Assembly (NCBI GenBank): GCA_021158245.1
Contig: JAGGVB010000174.1
Coordinates: 1-37,651, forward strand
From: a bacterium
Lineage (GTDB): Bacteria > Zhuqueibacterota > QNDG01
DNA length: 37,651 bases
Direction: 5' to 3'
Part shown: positions 10,954 to 27,606 of the stretch, one piece after another
Position numbering within the stretch: the first letter of the stretch is position 1
Layout: every line of letters starts with the position of its first letter
Notes under the pieces: generated by a model
Seen by the model: only the letters and a program-made list of their open reading frames with translations
What the model was told of the DNA's origin: nothing
Databases searched by the model: none
Position numbers and translations under genes: made by a program

Positions 10954-11568
10954 TTATCCCCAAATATCTTTCAGCATAACTTCATGCCTGCATTTGGGGC
11001 AAAGTACTTTCATTATATCTGTTCTTCTTATCTCTGCATCTTCAAATCTCTCTGCAGGAGATGTTTCAATACCTGCAGGGACCAATACGAGATTAGGATT
11101 TCCATAGGCAAGAGTACCGAGCTTTTTGGAAGTCCATTCCAAATGATCTTTTGTTGTAATGATACTGTGACATACTTCACAAATTACAAGTTCTTTTTCA
11201 ATACTTTCACATGCAAGCTTTCTATCAAAAAGTGCAAGATCAAACTTGCTTGTAAGCTGAATACCTTTACCAGTAATACAATTCTGCTCACAGTTCCCGC
11301 AAAAAATGCAGGAATCATACCTCAGTTCAATTTTCCTTAATGGATTTTTAATTGTAACCGGTTCTTCAGGATCAATGACATGAATAGCATTACCGGGGCA
11401 CACTTCCGCACATGCTCCGCAACCCACACAATACTCATCAAAATATTCCGGTTTTCCTCTGAACCCTTCAAAAGGTATGTGCTGTTCTTTTGGAAATTTT
11501 GTCGTATAAGGCTTTGAAAAAAGTGATCTCAATGCCTCACGAAGTTCTCTTAACTTAGGATACTTCAT
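10954..11568 (-). CDS. NuoI/MbhN-like 2[4Fe-4S] ferredoxin subunit with C-terminal CxxC pairs
   Basis: A 204-residue iron-sulfur subunit, last gene of the membrane hydrogenase operon. Two [4Fe-4S] motifs are at Cys47/50/53/57 and Cys87/90/93/97, as in NuoI, EchF and MbhN, which carry electrons to or from the small subunit. The C-terminal half adds two CxxC pairs (130/133 in CEVCHSII and 190/193 in CPKCRHEV) that look like a zinc-ribbon or rubredoxin-like site, seen in some formate-hydrogenlyase-type subunits such as HycF/HyfH. ATG 11568 has GGGA upstream. In this complex it is a candidate ferredoxin docking point, independent of the NAD(P)H module at the operon's start. Confidence 0.85.
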   Translation of the reverse strand: MKYPKLRELREALRSLFSKPYTTKFPKEQHIPFEGFRGKPEYFDEYCVGCGACAEVCPGNAIHVIDPEEPVTIKNPLRKIELRYDSCIFCGNCEQNCITGKGIQLTSKFDLALFDRKLACESIEKELVICEVCHSIITTKDHLEWTSKKLGTLAYGNPNLVLVPAGIETSPAERFEDAEIRRTDIMKVLCPKCRHEVMLKDIWG

Positions 11569-11580
11569 ATTATTCCCATA

Positions 11581-11925
11581 TTACAGTCTCGGATTATCGC
11601 CTCGATCTTCGGCGTATTGATCAACAACACTCTTTTCCCACAATTTAACTCCAAAAATGTGCGCTCCTCTCGCAATAGCATGAGCACCAACCGGAGATGT
11701 TAAAAGTACGAATGGGATACCTATTAATGCTTTTACTCCGAGTCCTGTAAATCCCTTCATAATAAATATTCCAAAAAGTATTCCGCATGTACCAAAAGTC
11801 ACACATTTAGTCGCAGCCTGAAGCCTGTTATATACATCAGGTAATCTTAATAGACCTAGACAGCCCAGAGCATCAAATGCAACCCCCATACCTATTATGA
11901 TTTTTCCTACAATTTCATTCCACAT
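11581..11925 (-). CDS. mrpG: Na+/H+ antiporter subunit MrpG-like
   Basis: A small membrane protein with three transmembrane helices and the MrpG/MnhG core GCLGLLRLPDVYNRLQAATK. I place the start at ATG 11925 (MWNEIVGKI), which matches the usual MrpG N-terminus and follows a GGATGAG sequence; an in-frame ATG at 11937 and a longer ORF to 11982 overlap MrpF and look non-native. MrpG belongs to the small-subunit set (E, F, G) needed for assembly and ion conduction in Mrp antiporters and in Mbh-type hydrogenases (MbhC). Confidence 0.85.
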   Translation of the reverse strand: MWNEIVGKIIIGMGVAFDALGCLGLLRLPDVYNRLQAATKCVTFGTCGILFGIFIMKGFTGLGVKALIGIPFVLLTSPVGAHAIARGAHIFGVKLWEKSVVDQYAEDRGDNPRL

Positions 11926-11929
11926 AGCA

Positions 11930-12184
11930 TTACTCATCCAATGTTTTATGTGCAAGATACTTTGCAAGCGCAAGAGTTCCAAGGAAACTCAAAAATATCC
12001 ATGCAAGAGCAACATCAATAATAAAATCTCTTTTTGATATAACCGCCCACAATGCCGTCATTCCAACTGCAAGTGTTCCGATAATGTCAATTGCAACCAT
12101 CCTGTCAGGTATGGTACGTCCCACAGCAGCTCTTACCAGACATGCAAAACAACAACCTACCAGAATTAAAAAGAAAGTATTCAT
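11930..12184 (-). CDS. mrpF: Na+/H+ antiporter subunit MrpF-like
   Basis: An 84-residue membrane protein with three helices. It has the MrpF/MnhF pattern: a short hydrophobic start, AAVGRTIPDRMVAIDIIG (with the RxxPDR-like loop and the membrane Asp) and a C-terminal ALAKYL. It corresponds to MbhB of archaeal membrane-bound hydrogenases and is part of the Na+ pathway of Mrp complexes. The stop is within a few bases of the mrpG start; the gap to mrpE is seven bases. Confidence 0.88.
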   Translation of the reverse strand: MNTFFLILVGCCFACLVRAAVGRTIPDRMVAIDIIGTLAVGMTALWAVISKRDFIIDVALAWIFLSFLGTLALAKYLAHKTLDE

Positions 12185-12191
12185 AGCTCTC

Positions 12192-12677
12192 TCAATTAAA
12201 TATCTTTAATAGAATCTTCTCAAATTTCCCAGCTATCTTTTCGCTGGCCCTCTTAATATCAGTGTGCTTAACATTAATGCAATGGATGTACAGAATGTCT
12301 CCTTTGATATCCACTGTCAATGTACCGGGTGTAAGCGTAATGGAATTAGATAGAATCGCTTTCCCCATATCAGATTTCAATTTTGTTTTCACTCTTACAA
12401 TTCCGGGATTGATAGGCATACGAGGATGGAGAACCCTGTACGCAACATCAAAATTTGCCTTTGCCATTTCCCATACAAATACAGGGAGATATACTGCTAC
12501 CCAGAACCATCTTTCAGGATTTAAAACTTTATTTGTATCTCTGATAAAATTTTCGCCGAAAATAATCCCTGACAATATCGCAATAACAATACCGATTAAA
12601 ATATGCTGCCAGTCCAAAGACCATGAAAGTCCAATCCAAAGCAAGAATGAAAAGAGTATGAGCAGGATTTTTCTCAC
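12192..12677 (-). CDS. mrpE: Na+/H+ antiporter subunit MrpE-like
   Basis: A 161-residue MrpE/MnhE protein with two N-terminal membrane helices and a cytoplasmic domain. The family pattern is plain: PVFVWEMAKANFDVAYRVL, then INPGIVRVKTKLKSDMGKAI and LSNSITLTPGTLTVDI. It corresponds to MbhA. The start is GTG at 12677 with GGAGG five bases upstream, placed two bases after the mrpD stop. Confidence 0.9.
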   Translation of the reverse strand: MRKILLILFSFLLWIGLSWSLDWQHILIGIVIAILSGIIFGENFIRDTNKVLNPERWFWVAVYLPVFVWEMAKANFDVAYRVLHPRMPINPGIVRVKTKLKSDMGKAILSNSITLTPGTLTVDIKGDILYIHCINVKHTDIKRASEKIAGKFEKILLKIFN

Positions 12678-12678
12678 C

Positions 12679-14178
12679 TCATCCTCCCAGAACCATTTGT
12701 ACGTAGTTTAGACCACCGGCAATAATATTTGCTGCCGGACTCAAAATCATTGTCTTTAATCCGGGTATTAAAAGCAAACCCATAGTTATACTTAAAATAG
12801 CAAGAATAACCATAGGAATACTCATCATAACAGGAACTTCTTTTATATCTTGAAAAATTTTATTTAACTTACCCTGAAAAACCATTTTATTAAATTTCAT
12901 AAAATACACTATTGTAATAATACTTACCAGAACAAAAACCAACGCCAGAATAAAATGCTTGCTCTGAACAGCAGCAATTACAATTAAAAGTTTACTCCAG
13001 AATCCTGCAAATGGAGGTATCCCACTAATTGATAAAGAACCAATAAGGGATGTTCCTGATGTCAGCGGCATTACATCACCAAGCCCGCCCATTTTTTCCA
13101 TATCACGTGTTCCTGTTCTATATACAATTGCGCCAGAATCTAAAAATAAAAGTGACTTAAAAGCAGCATGATTCATCATGTGAAAGAGTGCTGCAAAATA
13201 TCCCAAAGATGTCCCAAGTCCAAGAGCAAAAATAACGCACCCTATTTGACTTATTGATGAATACGCAAGCATACGCTTTACATCTTTTTGTCCAACTGCG
13301 AGAATGCCCCCCACAACCATTGAGAGTGTTCCGAAAACAAGAAGCATTAGAGACAAAAATTTAAATTGAGATATACCAAATACATTAAAAAATATTCTTA
13401 TTAATGCATAAACCCCAAGCACTTTTATAACAACACCTGAAAGCATTGCAGAAATCGGTGCAGGTGCGGAAGGGTGCGCATCAGGCAGCCATGCGTGAAA
13501 CGGAATCAGAGCAGCTTTTAAAGAGAATCCCACAAAGAAAAGAATTGCAGTAAACATCAGAGCTGAATTCATACCTGTATTTGAGATCATTTTTGAAGCA
13601 TCTGCCATGTTCAGGGTACCTGTAACTCTGTAAAGTATTGCAATTGCAAAAAGTATAAATGCTGAAGCAGTACCGCCCAGCACCTGATATTTAAATGATG
13701 CTTCCAACTCTTCAGCACCCACTCCGAATGCAACAAGCGAATAAGAAGCAATTGCACTAATCTCAAGAAAAACAAACATATTAAAAAAATCGCCGGCAAG
13801 TACAACACCGTTCAATCCTGCAATCATAAGTAAAAACAATATGTAATATTTAACTTTATCTGTGTAGTGGCGCATATAATCAACTGAATATATTGTCACC
13901 ATAAGGCCTACAAAATTTATAATCAGCAGCATAAACAGCGATAACCCGTCAGCTACCATTGAGATACCAATGGGAATATGATTTACAGGCTGCCACCCTC
14001 CTGCATAAAATACAATTGTATGATTAAAAGAACCTAACATCCAGAATGTCATAATCGTTAATATCAAAGTTGCCAGATTACCGATTATGTCTGGTATGTT
14101 GCGCCACAGCTTTGCCAAAAAAGGCAGTAAAAAGGCAAAGCCTAACGGGATTACAATAAATAAAGGTAATATGTTCAT
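12679..14178 (-). CDS. mrpD: MrpD/NuoN-like antiporter-type proton/Na+ channel subunit
   Basis: A 499-residue, 14-helix subunit of the NuoL/M/N-MrpA/D superfamily. It retains the ion-path residues: Glu139 in TM5 (VFLEISAIASYS), Lys221 in TM7 (LKAALIPFHAWLPDAH) and Lys252 in TM8 (VVIKVLGVY). It corresponds to MbhH/MrpD and is the most likely true antiport channel of the complex. ATG 14178 overlaps the mrpC stop by four bases. It differs from its 601-residue paralog in the same operon, which lacks the TM5 glutamate. Confidence 0.9.
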   Translation of the reverse strand: MNILPLFIVIPLGFAFLLPFLAKLWRNIPDIIGNLATLILTIMTFWMLGSFNHTIVFYAGGWQPVNHIPIGISMVADGLSLFMLLIINFVGLMVTIYSVDYMRHYTDKVKYYILFLLMIAGLNGVVLAGDFFNMFVFLEISAIASYSLVAFGVGAEELEASFKYQVLGGTASAFILFAIAILYRVTGTLNMADASKMISNTGMNSALMFTAILFFVGFSLKAALIPFHAWLPDAHPSAPAPISAMLSGVVIKVLGVYALIRIFFNVFGISQFKFLSLMLLVFGTLSMVVGGILAVGQKDVKRMLAYSSISQIGCVIFALGLGTSLGYFAALFHMMNHAAFKSLLFLDSGAIVYRTGTRDMEKMGGLGDVMPLTSGTSLIGSLSISGIPPFAGFWSKLLIVIAAVQSKHFILALVFVLVSIITIVYFMKFNKMVFQGKLNKIFQDIKEVPVMMSIPMVILAILSITMGLLLIPGLKTMILSPAANIIAGGLNYVQMVLGG

Positions 14179-14513
14179 CCGCGTAGTTTCCTGATTTTAC
14201 GAACATCAAAAGTATCATATTTTTCAAAAATTCTTACTGCAAAAGAAACAAGAAGTGCCGTAGTTCCCAGGCCGATAACTATTGCTGTTAATACAAGGGC
14301 CTGTGGAAGAGGATCAACATATAAAGCATGCTGATTCCCTATATCTACAATAGGCGGCACTCCTCCGGTTCTATATCCTATAAGAGCAAGAAACAGATTA
14401 ATTGCATACTCCATAATCATAAGGCTGATAATAATTTTTATCAGATTTCTCTTAACAATTACTCCGTAAAGTCCAATGGCAAAGAGTACAACAGCCAGTA
14501 CGAACTCTATCAT
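14175..14513 (-). CDS. mrpC: MrpC/NuoK-like subunit
   Basis: A 112-residue, three-helix protein of the MrpC/NuoK family (MbhG). It contains IIISLMIMEYAINLFL with the conserved membrane Glu, a loop with DPLPQALVLTAIVIG and a final helix (ATALLV-like region TTALLVSFAVRIFE). It overlaps both neighbours by four bases, so mrpB, mrpC and mrpD are translationally coupled. Confidence 0.9.
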   Translation of the reverse strand: MIEFVLAVVLFAIGLYGVIVKRNLIKIIISLMIMEYAINLFLALIGYRTGGVPPIVDIGNQHALYVDPLPQALVLTAIVIGLGTTALLVSFAVRIFEKYDTFDVRKIRKLRG

Positions 14514-14956
14514 AATTTCTCTCCTACTCTAACAATTGCAAAATTGATAAAAATTGCAAATAAAGCAGCAGCCACTTCAATACCTATTGCAAGATTACAA
14601 AGCGGAATTATTCCGCCGCTGAAAAGAGCTCCTGCATGCACGCCCGGATTTGTTTTTGAAAAAATATTCAGAAAAAAATAAGTGCCCTGAATTAACCCCA
14701 AAATAGCAATAAATAGAAAAGCAAATATACCGCCGCTCTCAATTAAGGATGCTCTTTCTTTGTAAATCAGGCTCTTTGCTCTTTCCGAACCGTACGCCAG
14801 AATTAACAGCACAAAACACCCTGCTATAAGTACGCCCCCTGCAAATCCACCGCCTGGTGTCAAATGGCCGTGAGAAATGACATAGAAACCCAGTACAAAT
14901 ATAGACGGCGCCATAATCTGACTGATCTTTTTTACTATCAAAGTCATGCCCTGCAT
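14510..14956 (-). CDS. mrpB: MrpB/MnhB-like subunit
   Basis: A 148-residue protein with four membrane helices and the MnhB-domain motif YVISHGHLTPGGGFAGGVLI (residues about 21-40), diagnostic of MrpB/MbhF. In Mrp complexes MrpB lines the path next to MrpA and is required for Na+/H+ exchange. It sits three bases after the MbhD/E-like gene. Confidence 0.92.
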   Translation of the reverse strand: MQGMTLIVKKISQIMAPSIFVLGFYVISHGHLTPGGGFAGGVLIAGCFVLLILAYGSERAKSLIYKERASLIESGGIFAFLFIAILGLIQGTYFFLNIFSKTNPGVHAGALFSGGIIPLCNLAIGIEVAAALFAIFINFAIVRVGEKL

Positions 14957-14959
14957 CGC

Positions 14960-15487
14960 CTACACCCTCCCATTCTTTCTTAACACAGCTACAACTCCGG
15001 CGACTGATGTAAAAAGAACTGTTGCCTCTCCGAGTGTATCATAACCGCGAAAATCAAGAATAACTGCTGCAACCAGATTAACTGCTCCGGTTGCATTGAC
15101 ACCATAGTTTATATAATAATCCGCCATTCTTAAAACAGGGCTGCCAAAAGCAGAGATATCTCCGAATGCTTTAATGCTTGCAAAAACAAAAGCTGCAACA
15201 CAAACAAAACCGCATATCCACAAAACAACTTTTCTAACTTTAATGCTCTCAATGGTATCCTTTCGTGTTGTCTTTAATACAGCAGCAATAAGGATTATCA
15301 AAGTCAGAGTTTCAATTATTATCTGGACAATTGCAAGATCAGGTGCCTGCAGAATAAGAAAAATAATAGTCAATGCAAATCCTATGATACCAAGAGAAAT
15401 AACACCTGAAAGAATATCCTTTGTTTCAAGCGCAATAATTGCCCCGCATATCATCAATCCAATAAGGGGGATGAGGGCAGAAATCAT
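14960..15487 (-). CDS. MbhD-MbhE-like subunit (detached MrpA C-terminal part)
   Basis: A 175-residue membrane protein joining two small domains. Residues 1-75 resemble DUF4040/MbhD (GVISLGIIGFALTIIFLILQ, APDLAIVQIIIETLTLIILI). Residues 80-175 resemble MbhE/the last helices of MrpA (GAVNLVAAVILDFRGYDTLG, EATVLFTSVAGVVAVLRK). In Bacillus-type MrpA these are fused to the large antiporter domain; here they are a separate gene, as in the archaeal Mbh/Mrp arrangement. It overlaps the NuoL-like gene by four bases and has GGGAGGT before its ATG. Confidence 0.82.
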   Translation of the reverse strand: MISALIPLIGLMICGAIIALETKDILSGVISLGIIGFALTIIFLILQAPDLAIVQIIIETLTLIILIAAVLKTTRKDTIESIKVRKVVLWICGFVCVAAFVFASIKAFGDISAFGSPVLRMADYYINYGVNATGAVNLVAAVILDFRGYDTLGEATVLFTSVAGVVAVLRKNGRV

Positions 15488-17289
15488 CCGCTACCTCCCA
15501 TTAAAACAAGTATCAATACTGCCAAACCGAGACATAGCCATACCATATACAGGCTTAAAACTCCTGTATGTACTGGTATTAACAATTGAGCAGTTCTGTT
15601 AAGTAAATTGTTACACTGTTCATAAACATCAAACCACAATGCAACTGCTTTATCATAAAACCACTTTATTCCGGATAAATTTCTGATTGTATTATAAAAC
15701 CCTGTCCCTGTTACTCTGTCCTCTTCTTTAAGCTGCTCACCGCCTGTGAAAGGAGCTGCTTCACGTACTTTTATTGTACCAAATAAATAAATAATAACTC
15801 CTACTCCCAATCCGGCTATAATGGAAATTGTAGCCATACCCGGTTTCCACAAACCAATAAAAGAAGTATTTCCTGCAACAGGCAAAACTAAAAGTTTCAA
15901 TGGAACAGAAAATGCAAAAATTCCAAATATTACACAAAGAACCGCAAGAGTCAAAATCGGGCCGATAATCAATAGGCCGGATTCTTTAATATTCTTTTTC
16001 TCAATATCTTTGGAAGGTTTCCCAAGAAATATAGCATGTGTTAATTTCATAAAACTTGCCAGTGTAAGGCTGCTTCCAAATAAAGCCGCAATCAACCAAA
16101 TTATCCACAATTTATCACCCTGCTGGCCCAACTCAATTAGTCCCTGATATACAAGCCATTTGGAAGCAAAACCATTAAATGGAGGAATACCTGAAATTGC
16201 AAAAGCAGCCACAAGAAAAGAGATATAAGTTAAGGGCATAAATTTAGATAACCCGCCCATTTTATCAAGATCTGTTGTTCCTGTTTTTTTCTCAACGGAC
16301 CCGCCTGCCATAAACAGGCAGGATTTATAAATTACATGATTCAACAGATGGAAAAGGCCGCCAGCCAGGCCCAGAACAGTCCCTGTCCCGATACCAAGTA
16401 TCATATATCCGACCTGACTTACAGCATGGTATCCAAGCAGGCGTTTTAAATCATGCTGAATCAGTGCCATAAATACTGCAGCCAGTATAGTAATACTTCC
16501 CAAAGCCATTAAAACAACATTCATTGCAAAATTCATTTTGAATATAGAAGTTACAGCCCTTGCAAGAAGATATATACCTAGCAGCTTATCGAGAGAAGCA
16601 GGTAAAAACGCTGCCACCGGTGTAGGAGCTTCTTTTGCTGTATCCGGAACCCAGGTATGGAATGGTATGGCTCCTGCTTTTGCAAGTATACCGCAGAGCA
16701 ATAAAATGAAAGCAGCGTAAGATGCAAAACCTGCTATTGGTATATTTATTTCATTTATTGAAAAGCTCCCTGTAATTCTGTAAATAACTGCAATAGCGAG
16801 AATCATAAGTACATCTGTACCGCCTATTATAACAATGGATTTATTTGCAATTGGTGCAGCTTTTTCTCCTCCGGTTAATATTAAGGTATACAGCATAACA
16901 CCGAGGAAGCCCCAGAAGACAATCATTAGTATTAAATTATTTGAGAACACTGCTCCGGTTGTTGCGCCTATTGTTAAAAGAAAAGAGCCGTAATACATGG
17001 AACGGCTTTTATTTTGCCGCATAAATGAAACTGAATATATAGCAATAAGAAGCCCGAAAAATCCTGCAACAAGCACAATAAAGGATGCAAGATTATCCAT
17101 GGAGAACAAAATCCGGTCATTATAACTGAATATTAAAGGCTTCTTTAAAAATAACCAAAACAGATATCCGAATGTGGCAGCAGAAACCAATACTGTGATT
17201 GACTCCTGTACATATTTCACTTTTTTAGGTACAATGAAACACAGCAGGCCCGCTATAAACGGAAAAATTATGGGCAAAAGAAGATTCAT
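15484..17289 (-). CDS. NuoL/MrpA-like large membrane subunit lacking the TM5 glutamate
   Basis: A 601-residue antiporter-type subunit with about 15 helices. Lys204 in ILAKAGAIPFHTWVPD (TM7) and Lys235 in LDKLLGIY (TM8) are kept, as is DLKRLLGYHAVSQVGYM. The TM5 site, normally FWE or similar, reads IVFWGFLGVMLY, with Gly127 in place of the conserved Glu. The C-terminus has a soluble stretch (REAAPFTGGEQL, YDKAVALWFDVYEQ) and a last helix, like HyfB/HycC-type subunits. The start is ATG 17289, sharing one base with the upstream stop (TGATG); a GTG three bases earlier is possible. Role: membrane arm of the hydrogenase complex, perhaps structural or with altered ion coupling. Confidence 0.88.
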   Translation of the reverse strand: MNLLLPIIFPFIAGLLCFIVPKKVKYVQESITVLVSAATFGYLFWLFLKKPLIFSYNDRILFSMDNLASFIVLVAGFFGLLIAIYSVSFMRQNKSRSMYYGSFLLTIGATTGAVFSNNLILMIVFWGFLGVMLYTLILTGGEKAAPIANKSIVIIGGTDVLMILAIAVIYRITGSFSINEINIPIAGFASYAAFILLLCGILAKAGAIPFHTWVPDTAKEAPTPVAAFLPASLDKLLGIYLLARAVTSIFKMNFAMNVVLMALGSITILAAVFMALIQHDLKRLLGYHAVSQVGYMILGIGTGTVLGLAGGLFHLLNHVIYKSCLFMAGGSVEKKTGTTDLDKMGGLSKFMPLTYISFLVAAFAISGIPPFNGFASKWLVYQGLIELGQQGDKLWIIWLIAALFGSSLTLASFMKLTHAIFLGKPSKDIEKKNIKESGLLIIGPILTLAVLCVIFGIFAFSVPLKLLVLPVAGNTSFIGLWKPGMATISIIAGLGVGVIIYLFGTIKVREAAPFTGGEQLKEEDRVTGTGFYNTIRNLSGIKWFYDKAVALWFDVYEQCNNLLNRTAQLLIPVHTGVLSLYMVWLCLGLAVLILVLMGGSG

Positions 17290-18473
17290 CACACACCCAT
17301 CTCTCTTATGATTTTTTCTGTTTTCTGATGAGACAACTTCATAAGATCCTGTTCGTTCAGAACATCTTCTGAACTGGTTTCTTTATTTACAACAACGACT
17401 CTTTCAGTGCAGCAGTAACACGGATCCACAGCAGCAAGGATGAGTGCTGCATCAGCAACTGTTTCTCCAATGCAGGCAATTTCATTTGAAAAAATATTTG
17501 TGTAACTCGGTGCCCTGACTTTGTATCTTGCTGGAAAATTTGATCCGTCACTCTTACAGTAATGATAAACTTCCCCCCGGGGAGCCTCTGCTCTGCCGAT
17601 TCCTTCCCCGGCAGGCAGCTCTTTAATTTTAAGATCAATAATTCCTGGTTTCATCTTGTTAAGGCACTGTTCAATTATTTTTACAGATTCATACATTTCT
17701 AGGATACGCACAACAGCTTTTGCAAATACATCTCCCTCTTCCATCACTACAATATCCCAGTCCAGCCAGTCATATGCAAAATATGGGTCATCTTTTCGAA
17801 CATCAATGGCCAGGCCGGAAGGACGGGCTGTGGGCCCTACAACACAGTACTCTATGGCCTTCTCTTTTGTCAGAACTCCAACACCCTTCATCCTTGCATG
17901 AATTACAGGATCATCCATTACAGCACCTTTGAATATATCAAGAGCAGGTTTTAATTTATCAAGGCCTTTTAATACCCACGGTATATCGTCATCGTTAATA
18001 TCGCGCCTTACACCGCCTACTTTAAACATAGCATAACTCTGCCGGTTGCCTGTAATCTTATCAAATATATCACACACAATTTCACGATATTTCCACGCCC
18101 ACATCCATACAGTATTGTAGCCAATAAAATGCCCTGCGAGTCCGAGCCAGAGCAAATGGGAATGTATTCTCTCAAGTTCGCATATAACTGTTCTGATGTA
18201 CTGTGCCCTTTCGGGAGCTTCAATGCATCCGAGATCCTCCATTGCATTAATTGATGCAGCAGGATGACTGGTAGAGCAAATACCGCAAATTCTTTCAACC
18301 AGGAATACAACCTGATCCCACGATTTTGATTCGGCAAGTTTCTCAATACCGCGGTGATTATACCCTATCTCAATATCCAGTTTAACAACACGTTCGCCCT
18401 CAACGTGAAGTTTAAAAAATTCCGGCTCTTCCTGTAACGGATGATATGGGCCAATAGGAATTATTTCGCTCAT
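17289..18473 (-). CDS. Group 4 [NiFe] hydrogenase large subunit (NuoD/MbhL-like)
   Basis: A 394-residue catalytic subunit. Both Ni ligand pairs are present: RICGICSTSH (Cys63, Cys66) and DPCYCCTER (Cys352, Cys355), so it should bind the NiFe(CN)2CO centre, unlike NuoD or Ehr-type relatives that lost these cysteines. The length and the Arg that ends the second motif fit group 4 enzymes (Mbh, HycE, Ech). A 36-residue tail follows Arg358; in HycE-type proteins such a tail is removed by an endopeptidase after nickel insertion. The upstream NuoC-like gene overlaps by four bases. It reduces protons to H2, or the reverse, at the membrane. Confidence 0.92.
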   Translation of the reverse strand: MSEIIPIGPYHPLQEEPEFFKLHVEGERVVKLDIEIGYNHRGIEKLAESKSWDQVVFLVERICGICSTSHPAASINAMEDLGCIEAPERAQYIRTVICELERIHSHLLWLGLAGHFIGYNTVWMWAWKYREIVCDIFDKITGNRQSYAMFKVGGVRRDINDDDIPWVLKGLDKLKPALDIFKGAVMDDPVIHARMKGVGVLTKEKAIEYCVVGPTARPSGLAIDVRKDDPYFAYDWLDWDIVVMEEGDVFAKAVVRILEMYESVKIIEQCLNKMKPGIIDLKIKELPAGEGIGRAEAPRGEVYHYCKSDGSNFPARYKVRAPSYTNIFSNEIACIGETVADAALILAAVDPCYCCTERVVVVNKETSSEDVLNEQDLMKLSHQKTEKIIREMGV

Positions 18474-18907
18474 TTATCCCTCCTGAGAGGATAGCTGCCT
18501 TCAGGCCAGTCGTCTGGCAGAAGAAGATGTTTCATATCAGGGTGACCTTTAAAATTGACTCCTAAAAGTTCTGCAATTTCCCGCTCAATCCATTCAGCTC
18601 CTTTGATTATTGCAGCAATGGATGCAACCTCAGGATCAGGTTTTTCCGTTTTGATTCTAAGAGAAAGCACCTGTGGAAGCTGGAAAAAATCAAAATGATA
18701 TAGAATTTCTATTACACCATAAGGAGTATCAACACCTGATGCAATTATAAATCTGCCTTTCAGCTCTTTGAATATATATCTGGTAAACTCTTCAATATCT
18801 TCATTATCAATATCAATATATATACGGCGGCTGTTGTGTTCTGCCCATTTTTTTATCTTCTTGCCAAAATTCTTTTGAATGTCAGATTTTATTTCTTCCC
18901 AGGTCAT
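18470..18907 (-). CDS. NuoC/MbhK-like 30-kDa subunit
   Basis: A 145-residue soluble subunit of the complex I 30-kDa family. The diagnostic C-terminal block reads WIEREIAELLGVNFKGHPDM, then KHLLLPDDWPEGSYPLRRDK. Its role is structural, holding the large and small hydrogenase subunits together. ATG 18907 lies 14 bases after the NuoB-like gene. The gene overlaps the large-subunit start by four bases (ATGA). Confidence 0.92.
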   Translation of the reverse strand: MTWEEIKSDIQKNFGKKIKKWAEHNSRRIYIDIDNEDIEEFTRYIFKELKGRFIIASGVDTPYGVIEILYHFDFFQLPQVLSLRIKTEKPDPEVASIAAIIKGAEWIEREIAELLGVNFKGHPDMKHLLLPDDWPEGSYPLRRDK

Positions 18908-18921
18908 CTATTCCTCGATTA

Positions 18922-19347
18922 TTAAGCCTTTTGTTTAACAAGAGCCAGAAGCTTTGCCACACCTGCTATAATACCTTCCGGTTTCGGAGGGCATCCCGGA
19001 ATATAGATATCTACCGGTAAAACCTCGTCAACTGTTTTGGGCATAACATAACTGCCGGAAAAAACACCATGATCAAGGGCGCATGTACCAATTGCAATTA
19101 CAACGCATGGCTTTGGAACCTGCTCATAAACTTCTTTTGCCCTCTGCATTGATTTCATTGTCATATTTCCGGTTACCAAAAGGGCATCTGCATGCCTCGG
19201 ACTCCCCACGAGGACAATACCAAACCGTTCAAGGTCAAACCGGGGAGTCAGGCAGTCAAGTATCTCAATATCACAGTTATTACAGCTTCCTGTTGACAGG
19301 TGGTACACCCATAAGGATTTTGTAAGTGCTTTTAATTTAATTCCCAT
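18922..19347 (-). CDS. Group 4 [NiFe] hydrogenase small subunit (NuoB/MbhJ-like)
   Basis: A 141-residue small subunit carrying a single proximal [4Fe-4S] cluster. Ligands are Cys22 and Cys25 (GSCNNCDIE), Cys89 (IGTCALD) and Cys119 (IPGCPPKP), the full set for MbhJ, EchC and NuoB. It transfers electrons between the NuoI-like/ferredoxin chain and the Ni site in the large subunit. It starts four bases after the NuoH-like gene. Confidence 0.92.
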   Translation of the reverse strand: MGIKLKALTKSLWVYHLSTGSCNNCDIEILDCLTPRFDLERFGIVLVGSPRHADALLVTGNMTMKSMQRAKEVYEQVPKPCVVIAIGTCALDHGVFSGSYVMPKTVDEVLPVDIYIPGCPPKPEGIIAGVAKLLALVKQKA

Positions 19348-19351
19348 AGAT

Positions 19352-20278
19352 TTAAAACCCCATTAAAGCAAGAATAACAGCAACTATTCCTAAAAATGTA
19401 ACAGGACCCCAGAAAAACTTCACAGCCTGATCTATACGCACCCTGGGATTTGTGTTACGTATAAGTATGGCAATTACAAGAAAAAACAGATATTTTAATA
19501 TGGACCACAATATGGACCAGCCGTGGAAGCTTACTCCTCCCCAAAAGATGAGGACAAAAAACATCGGGAGAGTAAAAAACATCATCATTTTTGTGAGTTT
19601 TATTATTGCGAGAGGTGTGCCTGAATACTCAACTTCAAGTCCGCCCATAATTTCTGTTTCAGCTTCAGGAATATCAAAGGGTACAAGAGTAAGTTTTGCC
19701 TGAATAGTCAGGATTACAATTATTAGGGCTATTATACCTGATGCTGATCCTGCAATCATTCCATGAGTCTGCTGAAAAGCAATCAACTGGTTAAGTTTAA
19801 TTGCGCCGCCGGCTTTAATTACAGGTACAGCAACTGCAAGTAGAAAGGGAAGTTCATCAGCAAGCATTAGTTTCATTTCTCTGCTTGCACCGAGAGATGC
19901 AATCGGATTTTTTGATGCAAACCCTCCGATAATAAAGGAAATCGAAGGGATCATTAGAAAATACAGAACTACAATAAGATCACCGATAAAACCTCTGTCC
20001 TGCCACAGCAATGAATTCCATACAATTGTTGAAACAAGAGTAACCGCAGCAAGCCCGAATACAGGAGCTGTAAGAAAAGTTGCTCTGGAGCATGCTCTTG
20101 GTATTACTGTCTCTTTACCGAGAAGTTTAACAATATCAAAAAGAGGCTGCATAAACGGGGGGCCTACTCTCCATTGAACTCTCGCTGTCACTTTTCTGTC
20201 CAGCCAGCTTGCCAGGATACCGACAAAAGCAGTAAAAATAAATCCTGGAAAAATCAGATAATTAAACACTTGTTCCAT
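19352..20278 (-). CDS. NuoH/MbhM-like membrane anchor subunit
   Basis: A 308-residue protein with eight predicted helices. Family motifs are ASWLDRKVTARVQWRVGPPF, QPLFDIVKLLGKE, ELPFLLAVAVP and PFDIPEAETEIMGGLEVEYS; the acidic loop at the quinone/proton-path position is retained. In group 4 hydrogenases this subunit anchors the catalytic arm and links it to the antiporter subunits. It starts two bases after the four-cluster ferredoxin gene. Confidence 0.92.
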   Translation of the reverse strand: MEQVFNYLIFPGFIFTAFVGILASWLDRKVTARVQWRVGPPFMQPLFDIVKLLGKETVIPRACSRATFLTAPVFGLAAVTLVSTIVWNSLLWQDRGFIGDLIVVLYFLMIPSISFIIGGFASKNPIASLGASREMKLMLADELPFLLAVAVPVIKAGGAIKLNQLIAFQQTHGMIAGSASGIIALIIVILTIQAKLTLVPFDIPEAETEIMGGLEVEYSGTPLAIIKLTKMMMFFTLPMFFVLIFWGGVSFHGWSILWSILKYLFFLVIAILIRNTNPRVRIDQAVKFFWGPVTFLGIVAVILALMGF

Positions 20279-20279
20279 A

Positions 20280-20768
20280 TCAGATATATTCTTCCTTTTT
20301 CCAAGGGATTGAGTGTACTATCAAATTTTCCGATACTTCAAACCAGTACTTGTCCTTATCCGGTTTAAAATCTCCGTATTGAACTGCTCCTTTCGGGCAT
20401 TCTCCAACACATACCGGCACCTCTTTATCTTTGAGCCGTCCTTCGCACAGATCACATCTTGATACAAAGTATGTTATGAGTTCGGGCAATATCGTACCGA
20501 AAGGACATGCATAGCTGCACGTATTGCATGCCACGCAAAGAAGGTTGTAACGTTTAACAATATTGTTTTCCTGCTTTTCAAGAGCATCTGCAGGGCAGGC
20601 TGTTACGCAGGGGGCTTCATCACAATGACGGCACGCTATTGCAAATTCCGCAATTTCTCTCAAATAGCGTATTCCATCATTATCAGGGTGGTAAAAATAG
20701 CTGCACCCTACAGTACACTCCTTGCATTTTCTGCACGATTCAAGATCTATGAACAATCTTTTTCTCAT
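20280..20768 (-). CDS. Four-cluster HycB/HydN-like electron-transfer protein
   Basis: A 162-residue protein with 16 cysteines in four groups (12/15/18/22, 46/49/54/58, 78/81/84/88 and 105/108/120/124), enough for four [4Fe-4S] clusters. This is the HycB/HydN/DmsB-like pattern. Such subunits link a dehydrogenase module to the hydrogenase; in formate hydrogenlyases they bridge formate dehydrogenase and the membrane complex. Here the neighbour in that position is the HydB/HydG NAD(P)H module, so it likely bridges that module to the NuoB/NuoI-like chain. I choose ATG 20768 because GGGA lies six bases upstream; ATG 20774 or TTG 20780 are possible. Confidence 0.9.
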   Translation of the reverse strand: MRKRLFIDLESCRKCKECTVGCSYFYHPDNDGIRYLREIAEFAIACRHCDEAPCVTACPADALEKQENNIVKRYNLLCVACNTCSYACPFGTILPELITYFVSRCDLCEGRLKDKEVPVCVGECPKGAVQYGDFKPDKDKYWFEVSENLIVHSIPWKKEEYI

Positions 20769-20770
20769 AC

Positions 20771-21589
20771 TCATTCCCAAATATCCGGCAGGCCCTTCAG
20801 CTGATCATACGTAAAAACAGGGCCGTCCTTGCAAATAAAGTAGTGATCAATAAGGCAGTGCCTGCACTGGCCTATACCGCAGTACATCTTGCGTTCCATA
20901 GAAAGGACTATGTCTTTTGGGCTGACTTTCAGTTCCAAAAGTTTCTTGGTCCCGAACTTCATCATTATCGGCGGGCCGATTACAACGGCTGTCACATTAT
21001 CTCTGTCAAATTTTATATCATCAAGAAGTGTTGTAACAACTCCTTCATGCCCCTTCCATGATTTATCCGCTTTATCTACGGTTACGCGGAGGTCTATATC
21101 TTTTTTAAATTTATCGATCTGATATTTATAAACTATATCATCCGGTGTTCTGGCACCGTAACACATTGTAATTTTGGGGAACTTCTTCTTTTCATTCAAA
21201 AGGCTGTACAATAAGGCCCGTGCAGGAGGGAAACCCACACCTCCGGCTATTAAAATGATCTCCCGCCCATACATTGATTCCAGAGGAAAACCATTCCCAT
21301 AGGGGCCCCTTAACCCAAGAGAATCGCCTTCGTTTGCCTTATGCAGCCTTGAAGTCATATATCCTACATTATTGATTGTAAACTCAATTGTCTGGTTTTT
21401 ATGACTCGGAGAAGACATTGCAAAAGGCCCTTCACCCACACCGGGAAGGGTTAATTCTGCAAACTGGCCGCATTTGAAAGAAAAAGGGGCTTCGGTACGT
21501 AGAATAAAAGTTTTAATACCCGGGGTTTCAGGTATTATTTTCTCAATAACTGCTTTTTGCGGTTTGTATGGATTTTCTGCTTTACTCAT
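20771..21589 (-). CDS. HydG-like FAD/NAD(P)H-oxidoreductase subunit (membrane complex copy)
   Basis: A 272-residue flavoprotein of the sulfhydrogenase gamma/ferredoxin-NADP reductase family. The FAD domain (about 10-105) has GPFAMSS at the flavin-binding position. The nucleotide domain has AGGVGFPPARALL and IGPPIM. A C-terminal [2Fe-2S] site uses Cys237, 242, 245 and 253 (MYCGIGQCRHC). It would oxidise or reduce NAD(P)H and pass electrons to the beta-like subunit encoded just upstream. It is a paralog of the gene at 25579-26442 in the 3b operon, showing that one hydrogenase acquired or shares the other's diaphorase module. NADH versus NADPH preference cannot be read. Confidence 0.88.
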   Translation of the reverse strand: MSKAENPYKPQKAVIEKIIPETPGIKTFILRTEAPFSFKCGQFAELTLPGVGEGPFAMSSPSHKNQTIEFTINNVGYMTSRLHKANEGDSLGLRGPYGNGFPLESMYGREIILIAGGVGFPPARALLYSLLNEKKKFPKITMCYGARTPDDIVYKYQIDKFKKDIDLRVTVDKADKSWKGHEGVVTTLLDDIKFDRDNVTAVVIGPPIMMKFGTKKLLELKVSPKDIVLSMERKMYCGIGQCRHCLIDHYFICKDGPVFTYDQLKGLPDIWE

Positions 21590-21600
21590 AAAAGTTTCCT

Positions 21601-22608
21601 CTATCTCGCCGCAAGGTCTTTTAAAACAACACGCATATCAATTTTCCCCTGACATGCCTCAATACAGCGTCCGCATCCGGTGCAGCCCAATTGGCCGTAA
21701 TTTTCTTCAAGATACTTAAACTTGCAAAAATACCTGTTGCGAAAACGTTCAAAAAGCCTGGGCCTCGGAGTGCCCCCTCCAGCAGTAACAGCATAACCAG
21801 TGTACTGACATGAATCCCACCCTCTCAATTTAACAAATTCTTTTCTGCTTGCATCTTCAAGCATGTAACAGTGGCATGTAGGGCACACATTATTACAAGC
21901 ACCACATTCGACACAAGTCTCCACATGTTTTTTATATACTTCGGATTCCCAGCTTTTTGAAACAATATCCGTATAAGACCCGTTAAAATCAAAATCACGA
22001 TTATTTTTCAGTACTTTAACTCTGGTCTGTTTCCGCATTTTTTCTACAGCCTCGTTTTCCTCCTTCACAACTTCTTTCAGAGCTTTGTCAAACCCTTCCA
22101 ACAATTCTTTTCCTCTGAGGCTGCCAATTTCGACAACATAACCTTCCCACACTTTTGAAATATTAAGGTCAAACCCTCTTGTGGGGAAAGGGTCACCGCC
22201 AACCATAGAACAAAAGCATGTGCTTAAAGGTTTATTACAGTCTGCACTTACAATAATGCTCTCTTCTCTTCTGCTTTGATAAAGAGGATCTGCGAAATCT
22301 CCTCCGAAAGCCTGATCCAGAATTGGCAGCGCAGCAAGATCACATGCCTTAACCCCCAAAAACAGCCATGGCTTATTTTTGTTGTTGTTTTTCTTAATTA
22401 TATTTTCAACAGGAGGTAATAAATAATTTTTCAAAGGCTGCACAGTCCGCACTTCATCAACTATAATAGAATTTATACTGCTGTTGTCAACCTCATGGAA
22501 ATAAAGTCCTCCTTCTTCACGTCTCGGCGCAATAATGAAGAACTTTTCAAGCCAGACATTTAAAATAGATGCCCAGTATTCTCTGCTTATGTAGTATCGT
22601 TCTGCCAT
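21601..22608 (-). CDS. HydB/AsrA-like iron-sulfur subunit (membrane complex copy)
   Basis: A 335-residue electron-transfer subunit of the sulfhydrogenase beta/AsrA family. C-terminal 2[4Fe-4S] motifs read CVECGACNNVCPTC and CTGCGRCIEAC. An N-terminal cysteine set (VKACDLAAL, SADCNKPLSTCFC) matches the third cluster site of the family. The open frame continues 28 codons upstream to a TTG at 22692, but that stretch (VSLFINVQC...) is unlike relatives, and ATG 22608 (MAERYYISREYW) aligns with the usual start. It is the first gene of the 16-gene operon, with a promoter about 280 bases upstream. It couples the flavin subunit to the rest of the complex. Confidence 0.86.
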   Translation of the reverse strand: MAERYYISREYWASILNVWLEKFFIIAPRREEGGLYFHEVDNSSINSIIVDEVRTVQPLKNYLLPPVENIIKKNNNKNKPWLFLGVKACDLAALPILDQAFGGDFADPLYQSRREESIIVSADCNKPLSTCFCSMVGGDPFPTRGFDLNISKVWEGYVVEIGSLRGKELLEGFDKALKEVVKEENEAVEKMRKQTRVKVLKNNRDFDFNGSYTDIVSKSWESEVYKKHVETCVECGACNNVCPTCHCYMLEDASRKEFVKLRGWDSCQYTGYAVTAGGGTPRPRLFERFRNRYFCKFKYLEENYGQLGCTGCGRCIEACQGKIDMRVVLKDLAAR

Positions 22609-22994: not shown

Positions 22995-23504
22995 TCACTC
23001 TGAATCGATAATTTTTATATTTTGGGAAATAAATTTAATTATAGAATCTGCACTTTCTGCACATACGGAGCTGATACTGCCCATAAATTTTAGAGTCTCG
23101 GGTTGAATTCCGATAAAATACGGATCCATTCCACGTTTTGCTATAATATTCATCAAAACTGTAATCGGTACTTTATGTGTTGAAAATGTCGGAACAAACT
23201 TATCTATATCAGAAGCTGAAAACAACTCTGTTTCTCCCGGAAGGCCGCCCAGATCAGCAGCATCAATAAATATAATCGCTTTAATTTCTTTGTTTTCAAT
23301 AAAATCAAAGACAAGGCTCTCAACGCTTTTTTCCTCTTCAGTGAAAACTCTTTCAGGAGAAAACTGTTTGAGAGCCTCTGCTGCTTTAATACCTATCCCG
23401 TCATCACTTCTGTCTCTGTTTCCAAGCCCGACAATAACAACAGATTCCTTGTGATGATTATTAAAAATATCTGCAATTGCTGATTTTATTACATTATCTT
23501 TCAA
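22995..23504 (-). CDS. [NiFe] hydrogenase maturation endopeptidase, HyaD/HycI family
   Basis: A 169-residue protease that trims the C-terminus of the hydrogenase large subunit after nickel insertion. Family motifs: VGLGNRDRSDDGIG (nickel-sensing Asp in RSDD), FIDAADLGGLPGE, STHKVPITVL and FIGIQPETL; the STHK and GIQP pair favours the HycI branch. The start appears to be TTG at 23504, overlapping the hydA stop by 11 bases. It belongs to the 3b operon by overlap. It is the only protease in the window and lies between the two hydrogenase sets, so it may process both the HydA tail (6 residues) and the group 4 tail (36 residues). Confidence 0.88.
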   Translation of the reverse strand: MKDNVIKSAIADIFNNHHKESVVIVGLGNRDRSDDGIGIKAAEALKQFSPERVFTEEEKSVESLVFDFIENKEIKAIIFIDAADLGGLPGETELFSASDIDKFVPTFSTHKVPITVLMNIIAKRGMDPYFIGIQPETLKFMGSISSVCAESADSIIKFISQNIKIIDSE

Positions 23505-24780
23505 TTTTCACCAAATGTGTTGAACAACTTATACAAGGGTCGTATGCCCTTGCAATAACTTCACACTGAAAACGAATTTTATCATCATCAGCATCCTGTT
23601 TAACAAGTGCCTCTACTGCATTTCTCATATACTTTTCAACATCTTCAAGATTTTGTCCCGTAGGAATTACAAAATTTGCCTTATCAATAAGTCCGTCTTT
23701 CATTTTATAATGGTGATAAAGAGTTCCCCTTGGTGCTTCTACTGCACCCACTCCTTCACCATCTAATTGTGAAGGCAGTACAATCTCAGGGTCATCTTCA
23801 ATCTTCAACATTTTGTCAACAATTCCCGGAATTAATTCAAGAGCCCACACAAGCTCAATTGCCTGAGCAAGGTTATTAAAAACAGGATTTTTGAGCCATC
23901 TCGGATTGTAATATTTTTTAAATAGAACGCCTGCTTTTCCCTGAAGCCTCTCGCCCAGATTAACCATACGCGCCAAAGCGCCTACACTGTAAGGCTTTCC
24001 ATTATACAGGCAATGCTTTGCAGCAGAGTGTGCACAGAACTGTTCATTAGTAAGTGATTTATATTCTGCAACATCAACAACACTGCCGTCAGAAATAATA
24101 ATCCGATCTCCTACAATCCCGTATGTTCCGTCACCAGGCTCACAACACATATAAGTTGTCTCTTCCTCAAAAAAATCAGGTATCTCCAGCCCGCCGATCA
24201 GATCTGACCCTATCTCGGCAAATGCAAGCTGCTTTTTAGCCTCGCTCTTTATTCCGAGAAGAGTCTTTTTATCCGGGAACTTTCCAAAACCCCCTACAGT
24301 AGGATTCTCACCATGGATCATACGGCCGCCTGTTACCTGCATTATGTGATTTCCATATTTTTTCAGGCTCAAAGCTCCAAGCACCTCGTCTCCGTATTTC
24401 TCTGCCATTGCTATTGCACTCGGGTAACCCAAAAAGTCCGGCAGGGCAAGTACAAAAACATGGAGGGAATTACTCTCAATTAATTCTCCGAGATGCATCA
24501 GACTGCGTAATAGCTGTACTTTTTCAGGCACTGCAATCCCAAGGGCTTTTTCCAAACCTCTTAACGCTGCATATCTGTGAGAAATAGTACAAATAGCACA
24601 TATCCGGCACGCAATACTCACATCTTCAGCAGGAGTCTTGCCCTCAACCAGTGTCTCAATAAGACGTGTGCCTTCAAATATATCAAAATGAACATCTTTT
24701 ATTTTATTACCGTCCATCCTTATCGAAATCCCGCCTTCTCCTTCTACCCTGGCTAACGGTTCTACAATAATCTCTCTCAT
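23494..24780 (-). CDS. hydA: Group 3b-type [NiFe] hydrogenase large (alpha) subunit
   Basis: A 428-residue catalytic subunit. The N-terminal Ni-binding motif is RICAICTISH (Cys61, Cys64) and the C-terminal one DPCISCSTH (Cys416, Cys419), followed by a short LVKIER tail that the protease encoded next would cut after His422. The conserved RVEGEGG is at 11-17. Gene order beta-gamma-delta-alpha identifies the sulfhydrogenase/NAD(P)-linked group 3b; such enzymes interconvert H2 and NADPH and can reduce sulfur or polysulfide in vitro. ATG 24780 is two bases after hydD. Confidence 0.92.
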   Translation of the reverse strand: MREIIVEPLARVEGEGGISIRMDGNKIKDVHFDIFEGTRLIETLVEGKTPAEDVSIACRICAICTISHRYAALRGLEKALGIAVPEKVQLLRSLMHLGELIESNSLHVFVLALPDFLGYPSAIAMAEKYGDEVLGALSLKKYGNHIMQVTGGRMIHGENPTVGGFGKFPDKKTLLGIKSEAKKQLAFAEIGSDLIGGLEIPDFFEEETTYMCCEPGDGTYGIVGDRIIISDGSVVDVAEYKSLTNEQFCAHSAAKHCLYNGKPYSVGALARMVNLGERLQGKAGVLFKKYYNPRWLKNPVFNNLAQAIELVWALELIPGIVDKMLKIEDDPEIVLPSQLDGEGVGAVEAPRGTLYHHYKMKDGLIDKANFVIPTGQNLEDVEKYMRNAVEALVKQDADDDKIRFQCEVIARAYDPCISCSTHLVKIER

Positions 24781-24781
24781 C

Positions 24782-25561
24782 TTAGAGAACTCCTAATATT
24801 TTCTTTAAAGGTTTCATCATTGCGCTTCCACCATGAATACGGAAACGCCGTTTTATCTCTTCTATTGAGAAATCTTTTTCTTTAAGCAGATTAAACTCAG
24901 AACTCACATTTGCATCCTTCATAGGCCCCCAGCATCCTATACAAGGCAAATTATGTGAAGGGCACGCAGCCCCGCACCCCGCTGCAGTAAGCGGGCCGAG
25001 GCACAATATCCCCTTTAGAAGCAGGCAATCGTTCTCTTTCCACCTGCATGTTGCACAAACAGGATAATCCGGAAACACAGGCATATCATCCTGGAGAAAA
25101 TGCGCATAAATATAAAAAAACTGCGTTGCATCAATAGGGCAGCCCGGAATATAAAAATCAACATCAACAAATACATCAATGGGTTTGGATTCTATCGGAG
25201 TCCTGTTCTCAAAAAAACCGTCTCCGTAAACCTTCTTAAACCGTTCATCCCATCCTTTTGCGCCGAGCTCCATAGCCTGAATACCGCCGTAACATGCACA
25301 ATTTCCCATTGCAACCAGAAATTTGGTGCGTTCTCTTATCTCTTTAACGTGCTTTGCCTGTTCCTGACTGGAGATAGAACCTTCAATAAGTGCAATATCC
25401 AATTCCGTATCATCATTATCACTCTTTGCAAGTGAAAATGATTTAATATTTGCAGTCTGGAAAAATTCCAGCAATTTTTCTTCACTATGAATAATTACAA
25501 GCTGGTCACCATTACACCCTGTAAATCCGTACAGACCAACATTTTTCTTTTCCTGACTCAA
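24782..25561 (-). CDS. hydD: Group 3b-type [NiFe] hydrogenase small (delta) subunit with Asp at a proximal-cluster position
   Basis: A 259-residue small subunit. The start is TTG 25561 with AGGAG seven bases upstream; a longer ORF begins at TTG 25576 but would put that site inside the coding region. The proximal-cluster motif, normally CxxC, reads GCNGDQL, so Cys16 is kept and the second position is Asp19. The other proximal ligands are present (GNCACYGG and IPGCPID). The medial/distal cluster cysteines are also present (VCATCRW, CLGPLTAAGC, ACPSHNLPCIGC). It relays electrons from the beta subunit to the NiFe site. Confidence 0.9.
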   Translation of the reverse strand: MSQEKKNVGLYGFTGCNGDQLVIIHSEEKLLEFFQTANIKSFSLAKSDNDDTELDIALIEGSISSQEQAKHVKEIRERTKFLVAMGNCACYGGIQAMELGAKGWDERFKKVYGDGFFENRTPIESKPIDVFVDVDFYIPGCPIDATQFFYIYAHFLQDDMPVFPDYPVCATCRWKENDCLLLKGILCLGPLTAAGCGAACPSHNLPCIGCWGPMKDANVSSEFNLLKEKDFSIEEIKRRFRIHGGSAMMKPLKKILGVL

Positions 25562-25578
25562 TTTTTTTCTCCTCAAAT

Positions 25579-26442
25579 TTATATGAGACCCTTCATATGA
25601 ATTACGTCCCAGTACGAAAAGACCGGGCCCTCAAGGCAGGTATATATATAACCTCCGATACTGCAGTGCCCGCATTTACCGACACCGCATTTCATTCTCC
25701 GCTCAAGAGTCATAAGTATCTGATGTTTTGGTACATTTAATTTTAATATCTCGGCAACAACAAATTTATACATAATCGGAGGCCCGCACACTGCAAAACT
25801 GGTATTATTGGGATCTATATCAGTTAGATTTGCAAAAAGCCTGGTAATAAGACCTGTCTCATACGGCCAGGCTCCTGTATCATCCTGATCCACTGTCAGA
25901 TGGCAGATCAGATCGTCACGGGTCATCATGTTGAAAAATTCTTCTTTAAATAACATATCATCAGGACGTTTTGCACCGTGAAGAAGGTAAATTTTTCCAA
26001 ATTGATCCCTGTTGTCCAGGGCATAAAGAAGAAGAGATCTTAATGGAACTGCGCCAAGTCCTCCCATTACAATTACAAGGTCCCTTCCTTTCATGTCCTC
26101 AATAGGGAATCCGTTGCCATAAGGGCCTCTCACACCCATAATATGATTTTCTTTCATCTTGAAAATATGATTTGTAACATTGCCAACTCTGCGTATACCA
26201 AATTCAATAAGCCCCGGCCTTGACGGAGTGGAAGATATACTGAAAGGAGCCTCACCTATGCCATTCAGAGAAACCATCATGAACTGGCCAGGCAGGTAAT
26301 TAAGGTTTATAGCTTTTGAGACATCTACCGCCCTTACCTGGAAAAAATTAACATCTTCAGTTAAGGGATATCTTCTAATCAAACGCATAGGTTCCGGAGT
26401 GTACGGATTTCTCGGCTCTGATGCACATGCACAATTTGTCAT
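25579..26442 (-). CDS. hydG: Sulfhydrogenase gamma subunit, FAD/NAD(P)H oxidoreductase
   Basis: A 287-residue flavoprotein of the group 3b hydrogenase. The FAD domain has APFSISSTPS, the nucleotide domain MGGLGAVPLRSLL and CGPPIM, and the C-terminal [2Fe-2S] site uses Cys252, 257, 260 and 269 (MKCGVGKCGHC). It exchanges hydride with NAD(P)H and electrons with HydB. ATG 26442 overlaps the hydB stop by four bases and has GGAGG seven bases upstream. It is paralogous to the subunit at 20771-21589. Confidence 0.9.
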   Translation of the reverse strand: MTNCACASEPRNPYTPEPMRLIRRYPLTEDVNFFQVRAVDVSKAINLNYLPGQFMMVSLNGIGEAPFSISSTPSRPGLIEFGIRRVGNVTNHIFKMKENHIMGVRGPYGNGFPIEDMKGRDLVIVMGGLGAVPLRSLLLYALDNRDQFGKIYLLHGAKRPDDMLFKEEFFNMMTRDDLICHLTVDQDDTGAWPYETGLITRLFANLTDIDPNNTSFAVCGPPIMYKFVVAEILKLNVPKHQILMTLERRMKCGVGKCGHCSIGGYIYTCLEGPVFSYWDVIHMKGLI

Positions 26443-27464: not shown

Positions 27465-27577
27465 CAATCCTCCGAAGTTACAAATAAAAACTGCAATTTT
27501 AGTTACTATTTATTATTTCTTTACTGCAATCATCATTATTTTACACTGCTGCTTTTCACTCTAAAACACTTATTATA

Positions 27578-27606
27578 ATGATAAGTATTTCTTATGAAAT
27601 TGTCAA
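27578..27606 (-). promoter_or_regulatory. Proximal sigma-70-type promoter of the 3b hydrogenase operon
   Basis: On the minus strand TTGACA (27601-27606), 17 bases, TATCAT (27578-27583). Predicted start is near 27571, about 107 bases before hydB. A near-copy drives the other hydrogenase operon. Confidence 0.6.

Follow-up and report, generated by a model that had tools for sequence, protein, structure and literature searches.

We analyzed a 37,651-nucleotide stretch of DNA (contig JAGGVB010000174.1 of assembly GCA_021158245.1; hereafter the window) from a bacterium of the Zhuqueibacterota and found that sixteen consecutive minus-strand genes at positions 10954-22608 combine a group 4 [NiFe] hydrogenase, an Mrp-type antiporter module, and a HydB/HydG-type diaphorase. 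Energy-converting hydrogenases are usually regarded as ferredoxin, formate, or CO enzymes. Judging from sequence, we predict that this operon represents a widespread NAD(P)H-wired energy-converting hydrogenase, and we consider it likely that the products of the sixteen genes form a single membrane complex that works reversibly as an NAD(P)H:proton oxidoreductase and couples this reaction to ion movement.

Gene content and cofactor ligands

The sixteen genes are separated by gaps of at most 14 bp, the largest lying between the small-subunit and NuoC genes, and several of them overlap. Their order is HydB, HydG, four-cluster ferredoxin, NuoH, small subunit, NuoC, large subunit, MrpA, MbhDE, MrpB, C, D, E, F, and G, and NuoI (Table 1). 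A first-pass annotation of the same DNA had described sixteen packed genes of this content and order, a group 4 core with all its Ni ligands, and a full set of MrpA-like to MrpG-like subunits, and each of these descriptions holds up: the layout in the open reading frame (ORF) listing, Pfam matches, and translations, the Mrp set in Pfam, and the core in the ligands set out below. HydB of this operon (HydB2) begins with an ATG at 22608; a longer ORF reaching 22692 begins with TTG, and its extra N terminus is missing from almost all relatives. MrpG is drawn from a TTG start, and its true start probably lies near 11937.

Relatives of the large subunit were gathered from 147 genomes chosen by kinship and by a profile search of GTDB r220 contigs, and their neighborhoods were annotated. 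The loci were picked for the resemblance of their large subunit to that of the window, and the results do not extend to more distant group 4 enzymes. The large subunit carries the motifs L1 (ERICGIC) and L2 (DPCYCCTER), whose four Ni-ligand cysteines (Cys63, Cys66, Cys352, and Cys355) are retained throughout the 96 aligned sequences, and four cysteines of the small subunit are invariant across 85 sequences. The four Ni cysteines, the complex I-like large and small subunits, and the NuoH-like anchor place the enzyme in group 4; the narrower label 4g comes from the literature on Omnitrophota relatives. The group 3b catalytic subunits HydA and HydD are not among the sixteen genes, which encode complex I-like subunits instead, and Pfam found no molybdopterin protein within the window that might be a formate dehydrogenase subunit.

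All Mrp subunits are encoded, MrpA as two proteins, one NuoL/MrpA-like (602 aa) and the other MbhD/MbhE-like (175 aa). The MrpD-like subunit has a complete Glu/Lys set (E139, K221, K252, and K396 in 69 of 69 sequences). In the MrpA-like subunit, the glutamate found in transmembrane helix 5 (TM5) of MrpA and MrpD is replaced by glycine in 58 of 61 sequences (Gly128 in the window) and retained in 3, and a new aspartate, Asp160, is conserved in 59 sequences.

On the diaphorase side, 15 cysteines of HydB2 are invariant in 64 sequences, as are the four [2Fe-2S] cysteines of HydG2 in 78. The closest solved structures are the gamma (9nez_C, for HydG2) and beta (9nez_B, for HydB2) subunits of Pyrococcus furiosus sulfhydrogenase I, which form a known NADPH diaphorase. 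Among NCBIfam models, HydB2 scored highest against sulfhydrogenase 2 beta, exceeding its AsrA score but below the curated cut-off, and HydG2 scored highest against AsrB (231.8 bits), above the sulfhydrogenase gamma models but below the AsrB cut-off. Since both proteins fall short of every NCBIfam equivalog cut-off, they look like a subfamily of their own. A maximum-likelihood HydG tree points the same way: a 100/100 branch splits the group 4-linked HydGs from those of group 3b, Hyf-like, and two other loci, which indicates that group 4-linked HydG is a lineage separate from the HydG of 3b and Hyf-type enzymes (the root as drawn is disturbed by the very long and aberrant row of locus L058). The first-pass term "sulfhydrogenase-type" is therefore apt at the superfamily level only, because HydG2 scores higher against AsrB and falls in its own clade.

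The AsrB score, together with the asrA/asrB annotation of relatives in PMC6349859, speaks for a reading in which HydB2 and HydG2 are AsrA and AsrB, act in sulfite or sulfur reduction, and do not serve the hydrogenase at all. We give this next to no credence. HydB2 favors sulfhydrogenase beta over AsrA, only 1 of 194 genomes searched had an AsrC match, with none above the family cut-off, and it was the absence of any such match from the window's genome that led us to reject the reading.

Table 1. Positions of the operon genes and of the neighboring hydrogenase cluster in the window
Feature	Position	Strand	Supporting matches
HydB2, HydB/AsrA-like iron-sulfur diaphorase subunit	21601..22608	-	Pfam Fer4_22; best PDB match 9nez_B, E=7e-44
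HydG2, HydG/AsrB-like FAD, NAD(P)H, [2Fe-2S] subunit	20771..21589	-	NAD_binding_1 and DHODB_Fe-S_bind; 9nez_C, E=4e-46
HycB/CooF-like ferredoxin, motifs for four [4Fe-4S] clusters	20280..20780	-	Fer4 families; PDB matches include HycB 7z0s_B
NuoH/MbhM-like membrane anchor	19352..20278	-	Pfam NADHdh, 3.7e-62
Hydrogenase small subunit, NuoB/MbhJ-like, one cluster	18922..19347	-	Pfam Oxidored_q6
NuoC/MbhK-like subunit	18470..18907	-	Complex1_30kDa
Catalytic large subunit, group 4 [NiFe] hydrogenase	17289..18473	-	Complex1_49kDa and NiFeSe_Hases; best PDB match 6cfw_L (MbhL), 1e-85
MrpA/NuoL-like antiporter subunit (N-terminal MrpA part), 602 aa	15484..17292	-	Proton_antipo_M
MbhD/MbhE-like (C-terminal MrpA part), 175 aa	14960..15487	-	Pfam MbhD, MbhE
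MrpB-like	14510..14956	-	Pfam MnhB
MrpC-like	14175..14513	-	Oxidored_q2
MrpD-like antiporter subunit	12679..14178	-	Proton_antipo_M, 9e-71
MrpE-like	12192..12677	-	MNHE
MrpF-like	11930..12184	-	MrpF_PhaF
MrpG-like	11581..11982	-	PhaG_MnhG_YufB
NuoI/HycF-like ferredoxin, two [4Fe-4S] clusters and C-terminal Cys quartet	10954..11568	-	Fer4_7
Group 3b hydrogenase HydB-HydG-HydD-HydA and HycI protease	22995..27467	-	Pfam; HydG1 in 3b clade

Linkage of the diaphorase to the hydrogenase core

The same gene order, HydB through NuoI, recurs in about 70 loci, which far exceeds chance. We measured linkage in the 75 loci whose large subunit shares at least 52% identity with that of the window and which have more than 4.3 kb of upstream DNA. 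HydB or HydG lies within 6 kb in 73 of them, and the count rises to 74 with L075, where HydG stands farther upstream behind inserted genes, including one for a 668-aa protein. An apparent absence in L039 proved to be an artifact of ORF choice, as that locus carries HydG, and L119 is the sole locus of the 75 lacking both genes. At least five Mrp genes are adjacent in 57 of the 64 loci with room for them, so the diaphorase is linked to the core more tightly than the Mrp module is. The first-pass annotation had proposed an NAD(P)H module built into an Mrp-linked group 4 operon, naming co-occurrence across genomes as the check and relatives without HydB/HydG as the counter-case; the conserved pairing we found across these loci supports that proposal.

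Loci with HydB/HydG come from at least eight named phyla (Omnitrophota, Bacteroidota, Elusimicrobiota, Nitrospirota, Planctomycetota, Spirochaetota, Hydrogenedentota, and Auribacterota) in addition to the window's own, and 30 named relatives are Omnitrophota; these names are labels of metagenome bins and may be misassigned. Across 74 loci, HydG2 and the large subunit diverge in step: their pairwise distances correlate at Mantel r=0.84, close to the value for the small and large subunits (r=0.82), and the largest value among 999 permutations was 0.14. Such tracking fits co-inheritance of the diaphorase with the hydrogenase.

Proposed electron path, rival readings, and known systems

The four-cluster ferredoxin resembles HycB-type subunits such as that of Escherichia coli formate hydrogenlyase (7z0s_B); the cysteines of its inner two clusters are invariant, and those of its outer two are present in 66-79% of relatives. 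The NuoI-like protein combines its two clusters with a further cysteine quartet near the C terminus (C130xxC133...C190PKC193) that was missing from the first-pass account, and all 12 motif cysteines are invariant in 65 sequences. MbhN of the P. furiosus membrane-bound hydrogenase (MBH) is only 139 aa long. In E. coli HycF, a quartet of the form CxxC-x34-CPxC lies in an extension that touches HycB, with its metal site near FdhF (PMC9474812). By analogy, we infer that HydB and HydG stand in for FdhF and supply electrons to the two connector proteins, one HycB-like and one HycF-like; the first-pass suggestion that the diaphorase occupies the dehydrogenase position of formate hydrogenlyase-type enzymes gains support from these two proteins.

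In the complex that we propose, HydG would oxidize NAD(P)H, probably NADH rather than NADPH, at its FAD and pass electrons through its [2Fe-2S] cluster to HydB, from which they would run via the HycB-like four-cluster ferredoxin, the HycF/NuoI-like ferredoxin, and the small subunit to the [NiFe] site, where H2 would be made or split. NuoH would join this redox arm to the complete Mrp module, moving H+ and probably Na+.

A different donor has been assumed for such enzymes. The nearest solved large subunit is that of P. furiosus MBH, which uses ferredoxin, and a paper on Omnitrophota and Cloacimonadota assumes a ferredoxin donor for Mrp-linked group 4g hydrogenases (PMC8542988). The window's enzyme could likewise be a ferredoxin-dependent Mbh-type hydrogenase, with HydB/HydG forming an NAD(P)H oxidoreductase in their own right, soluble and linked to it by cotranscription alone. 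We consider this unlikely, given that HydB/HydG are linked to the core more tightly than Mrp, that the HycB-like connector and the HycF-type quartet are typical of enzymes to which a dehydrogenase is bound, and that the 4g-linked HydG forms its own lineage.

Another possibility is that NAD(P)H and reduced ferredoxin jointly make H2 in an electron-confurcating enzyme. Confurcation is thermodynamically attractive, NuoI could still accept ferredoxin, and an RnfC gene in the genome means that the ferredoxin and NADH pools are probably linked. None of the sixteen genes, however, encodes another flavoprotein, NfnB-like or NuoF-like, such as is found in bifurcating enzymes, so confurcation has no anatomical support here, and the matches of HydG are to sulfhydrogenase gamma and AsrB, subunits that are not known to bifurcate. 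We therefore regard this alternative as quite unlikely and do not retain the first-pass description of the enzyme as possibly confurcating.

Evidence on direction comes from Rex, an NADH/NAD+-sensing repressor that typically represses until NADH accumulates. A Rex-like gene adjoins HydB in 19 of 66 loci from several phyla, sharing the operon's strand in several groups and divergently oriented in Bacteroidota, and both of the two flanking proteins checked are Rex by NCBIfam. Relief of Rex repression when NADH accumulates would favor NADH oxidation as the physiological direction. NADH stands at about -280 mV in cells and H+/H2 at -414 mV at 1 bar and about -296 mV at 10 Pa (our calculation from standard potentials). 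NADH is thus too weakly reducing to form H2 at high H2, and ion influx could push the reaction. The likely use of the proposed NAD(P)H:proton oxidoreductase would accordingly be ion influx-driven reoxidation of NAD(P)H to H2 when NADH is in excess, and at high H2 the complex could run in reverse, exporting ions.

Several points weigh against this reading. Gene linkage speaks for co-inheritance and is not proof of physical assembly, and the correlation of HydG2 with the large subunit partly mirrors shared species history. The low NCBIfam scores of HydG2 and HydB2 make the predicted cofactor use tentative. With the TM5 glutamate of the MrpA-like subunit lost, ion pumping may differ from that of Mrp or complex I. 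Finally, no Rex gene adjoins the operon in the window itself.

Two Rex-type genes lie elsewhere in the window's genome. Candidate Rex operators upstream of the operon were weak, with two mismatches (e.g., 27600-27617), among many chance matches, and we did not use them. In four other loci (L050, L052, L053, and L055), the operon is preceded by a possible H2 or redox sensor, a histidine kinase that includes an [FeFe]-hydrogenase domain; it is Pfam confirmed for L055 only, where response regulators are also present, and the candidates in the other three are proteins of about 680 aa.

The operon shares parts with several known systems. P. furiosus MBH has one MrpD-like antiporter subunit and is not known to include a diaphorase or a HycB-like ferredoxin; like the window, it unites a core of NuoH, small subunit, NuoC, large subunit, and NuoI with Mrp-type subunits (6cfw). 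E. coli formate hydrogenlyase (7z0s) has HycB-like and HycF-like connectors, the HycF Cys quartet, and a group 4 core but carries FdhF where the window has HydB/HydG and lacks the Mrp B-G set. Group 3b sulfhydrogenase (9nez) shares the HydB and HydG diaphorase subunits but is soluble, has other hydrogenase subunits, and has a HydG on the far side of the 100/100 branch. The Omnitrophota enzymes of PMC8542988 are Mrp-linked group 4 hydrogenases, as here, and the passages of that paper that assume a ferredoxin donor make no mention of a HydB/HydG diaphorase.

The closest published case is an "enigmatic" group 4 hydrogenase region of Saganbacteria RX5A (PMC6349859, 2019), with nearest relatives in Zixibacteria and Omnitrophica and a donor left unknown by its authors. 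It shares the group 4 core, Mrp-like subunits, cooF, asrA, and asrB with the window but adds an unclassified molybdopterin oxidoreductase, and it was described without a comparative survey. This was the only report of the combination that our literature search recovered, and, with subscription literature and supplements outside that search, an earlier description may exist. The first-pass remark that no described complex of exactly this composition was known was thus nearly right, the Saganbacteria relative apart.

If our reading is true, many uncultured anaerobes of the Omnitrophota, Bacteroidales, Elusimicrobiota, and other groups would gain an ion-coupled exchange between NADH and H2. This bears on H2 production from NADH by syntrophs and on the origin of the NADH module of complex I, whose counterpart here would be independent and built on an unrelated diaphorase. 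Models in which such Mrp-linked hydrogenases have a ferredoxin donor may also need checking.

Neighboring and related hydrogenases

A complete group 3b hydrogenase with a HycI protease, outside the first-pass finding, lies directly upstream of the operon on the same strand. It is probably not part of the group 4 complex, and its HycI protease may serve both enzymes. HydG1 of this neighbor falls in the 3b clade and HydG2 among the group 4-linked HydGs, with 38% identity between them, and on these grounds we ruled out that HydB2/HydG2 were recently copied from the 3b diaphorase. The tandem of 3b and group 4 enzymes also occurs in two relatives (G007 and G002), preceded there by an ORF of ~210 aa that is Rex-like in G007. 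An uncoupled 3b enzyme and an ion-coupled group 4 enzyme with different diaphorases might divide NADPH and NADH between them in these three genomes, so that H2 cycling would act as an ion-driven transhydrogenase, a notion that we consider very improbable. In three further loci (L038, L104, and L115), an [FeFe] hydrogenase with a NuoF-like subunit is found near the group 4 operon in place of the 3b enzyme, and a second NAD(P)H-linked hydrogenase may therefore be a recurrent neighbor.

The window's genome also holds a second Mrp-linked complex (L206, on G000:C186), with a NuoD-like subunit that lacks Ni ligands and a NuoI fused to a GltD/NfnB-like flavoprotein; the cluster stands behind a Rex-type gene. 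Another contig of that genome (L207, G000:C134) begins inside a similar cluster.

Among the relatives, L058 (7870-12500) has an apparent minimal version comprising HydB, HydG, a four-cluster ferredoxin, and small and large subunits (45% identity), with no membrane or Mrp genes recognized in the annotated neighborhood. In L045, a molybdopterin-like insertion separates HydG from the ferredoxin, comparable to that of Saganbacteria RX5A. Seven loci (L061-L067, from G012, G014, G022, G026, G037, G050, and G064) encode a Hyf-like group 4 hydrogenase with HydB-HydG, several of them with a molybdopterin oxidoreductase gene upstream; such enzymes occur in about 14 genomes.

Known NiFeSe enzymes carry selenocysteine in L2. 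In all seven Hyf-like loci inspected, an in-frame TGA stands at the second Ni-binding cysteine of L1 (AERICGI-TGA-GTVHSTGYC), followed by a short hairpin; L060 has a cysteine at this position. A tRNA-Sec scoring at least 60 bits was found in 8 of 13 checked genomes of the TGA-bearing type, and the L1 TGA is a candidate selenocysteine codon.

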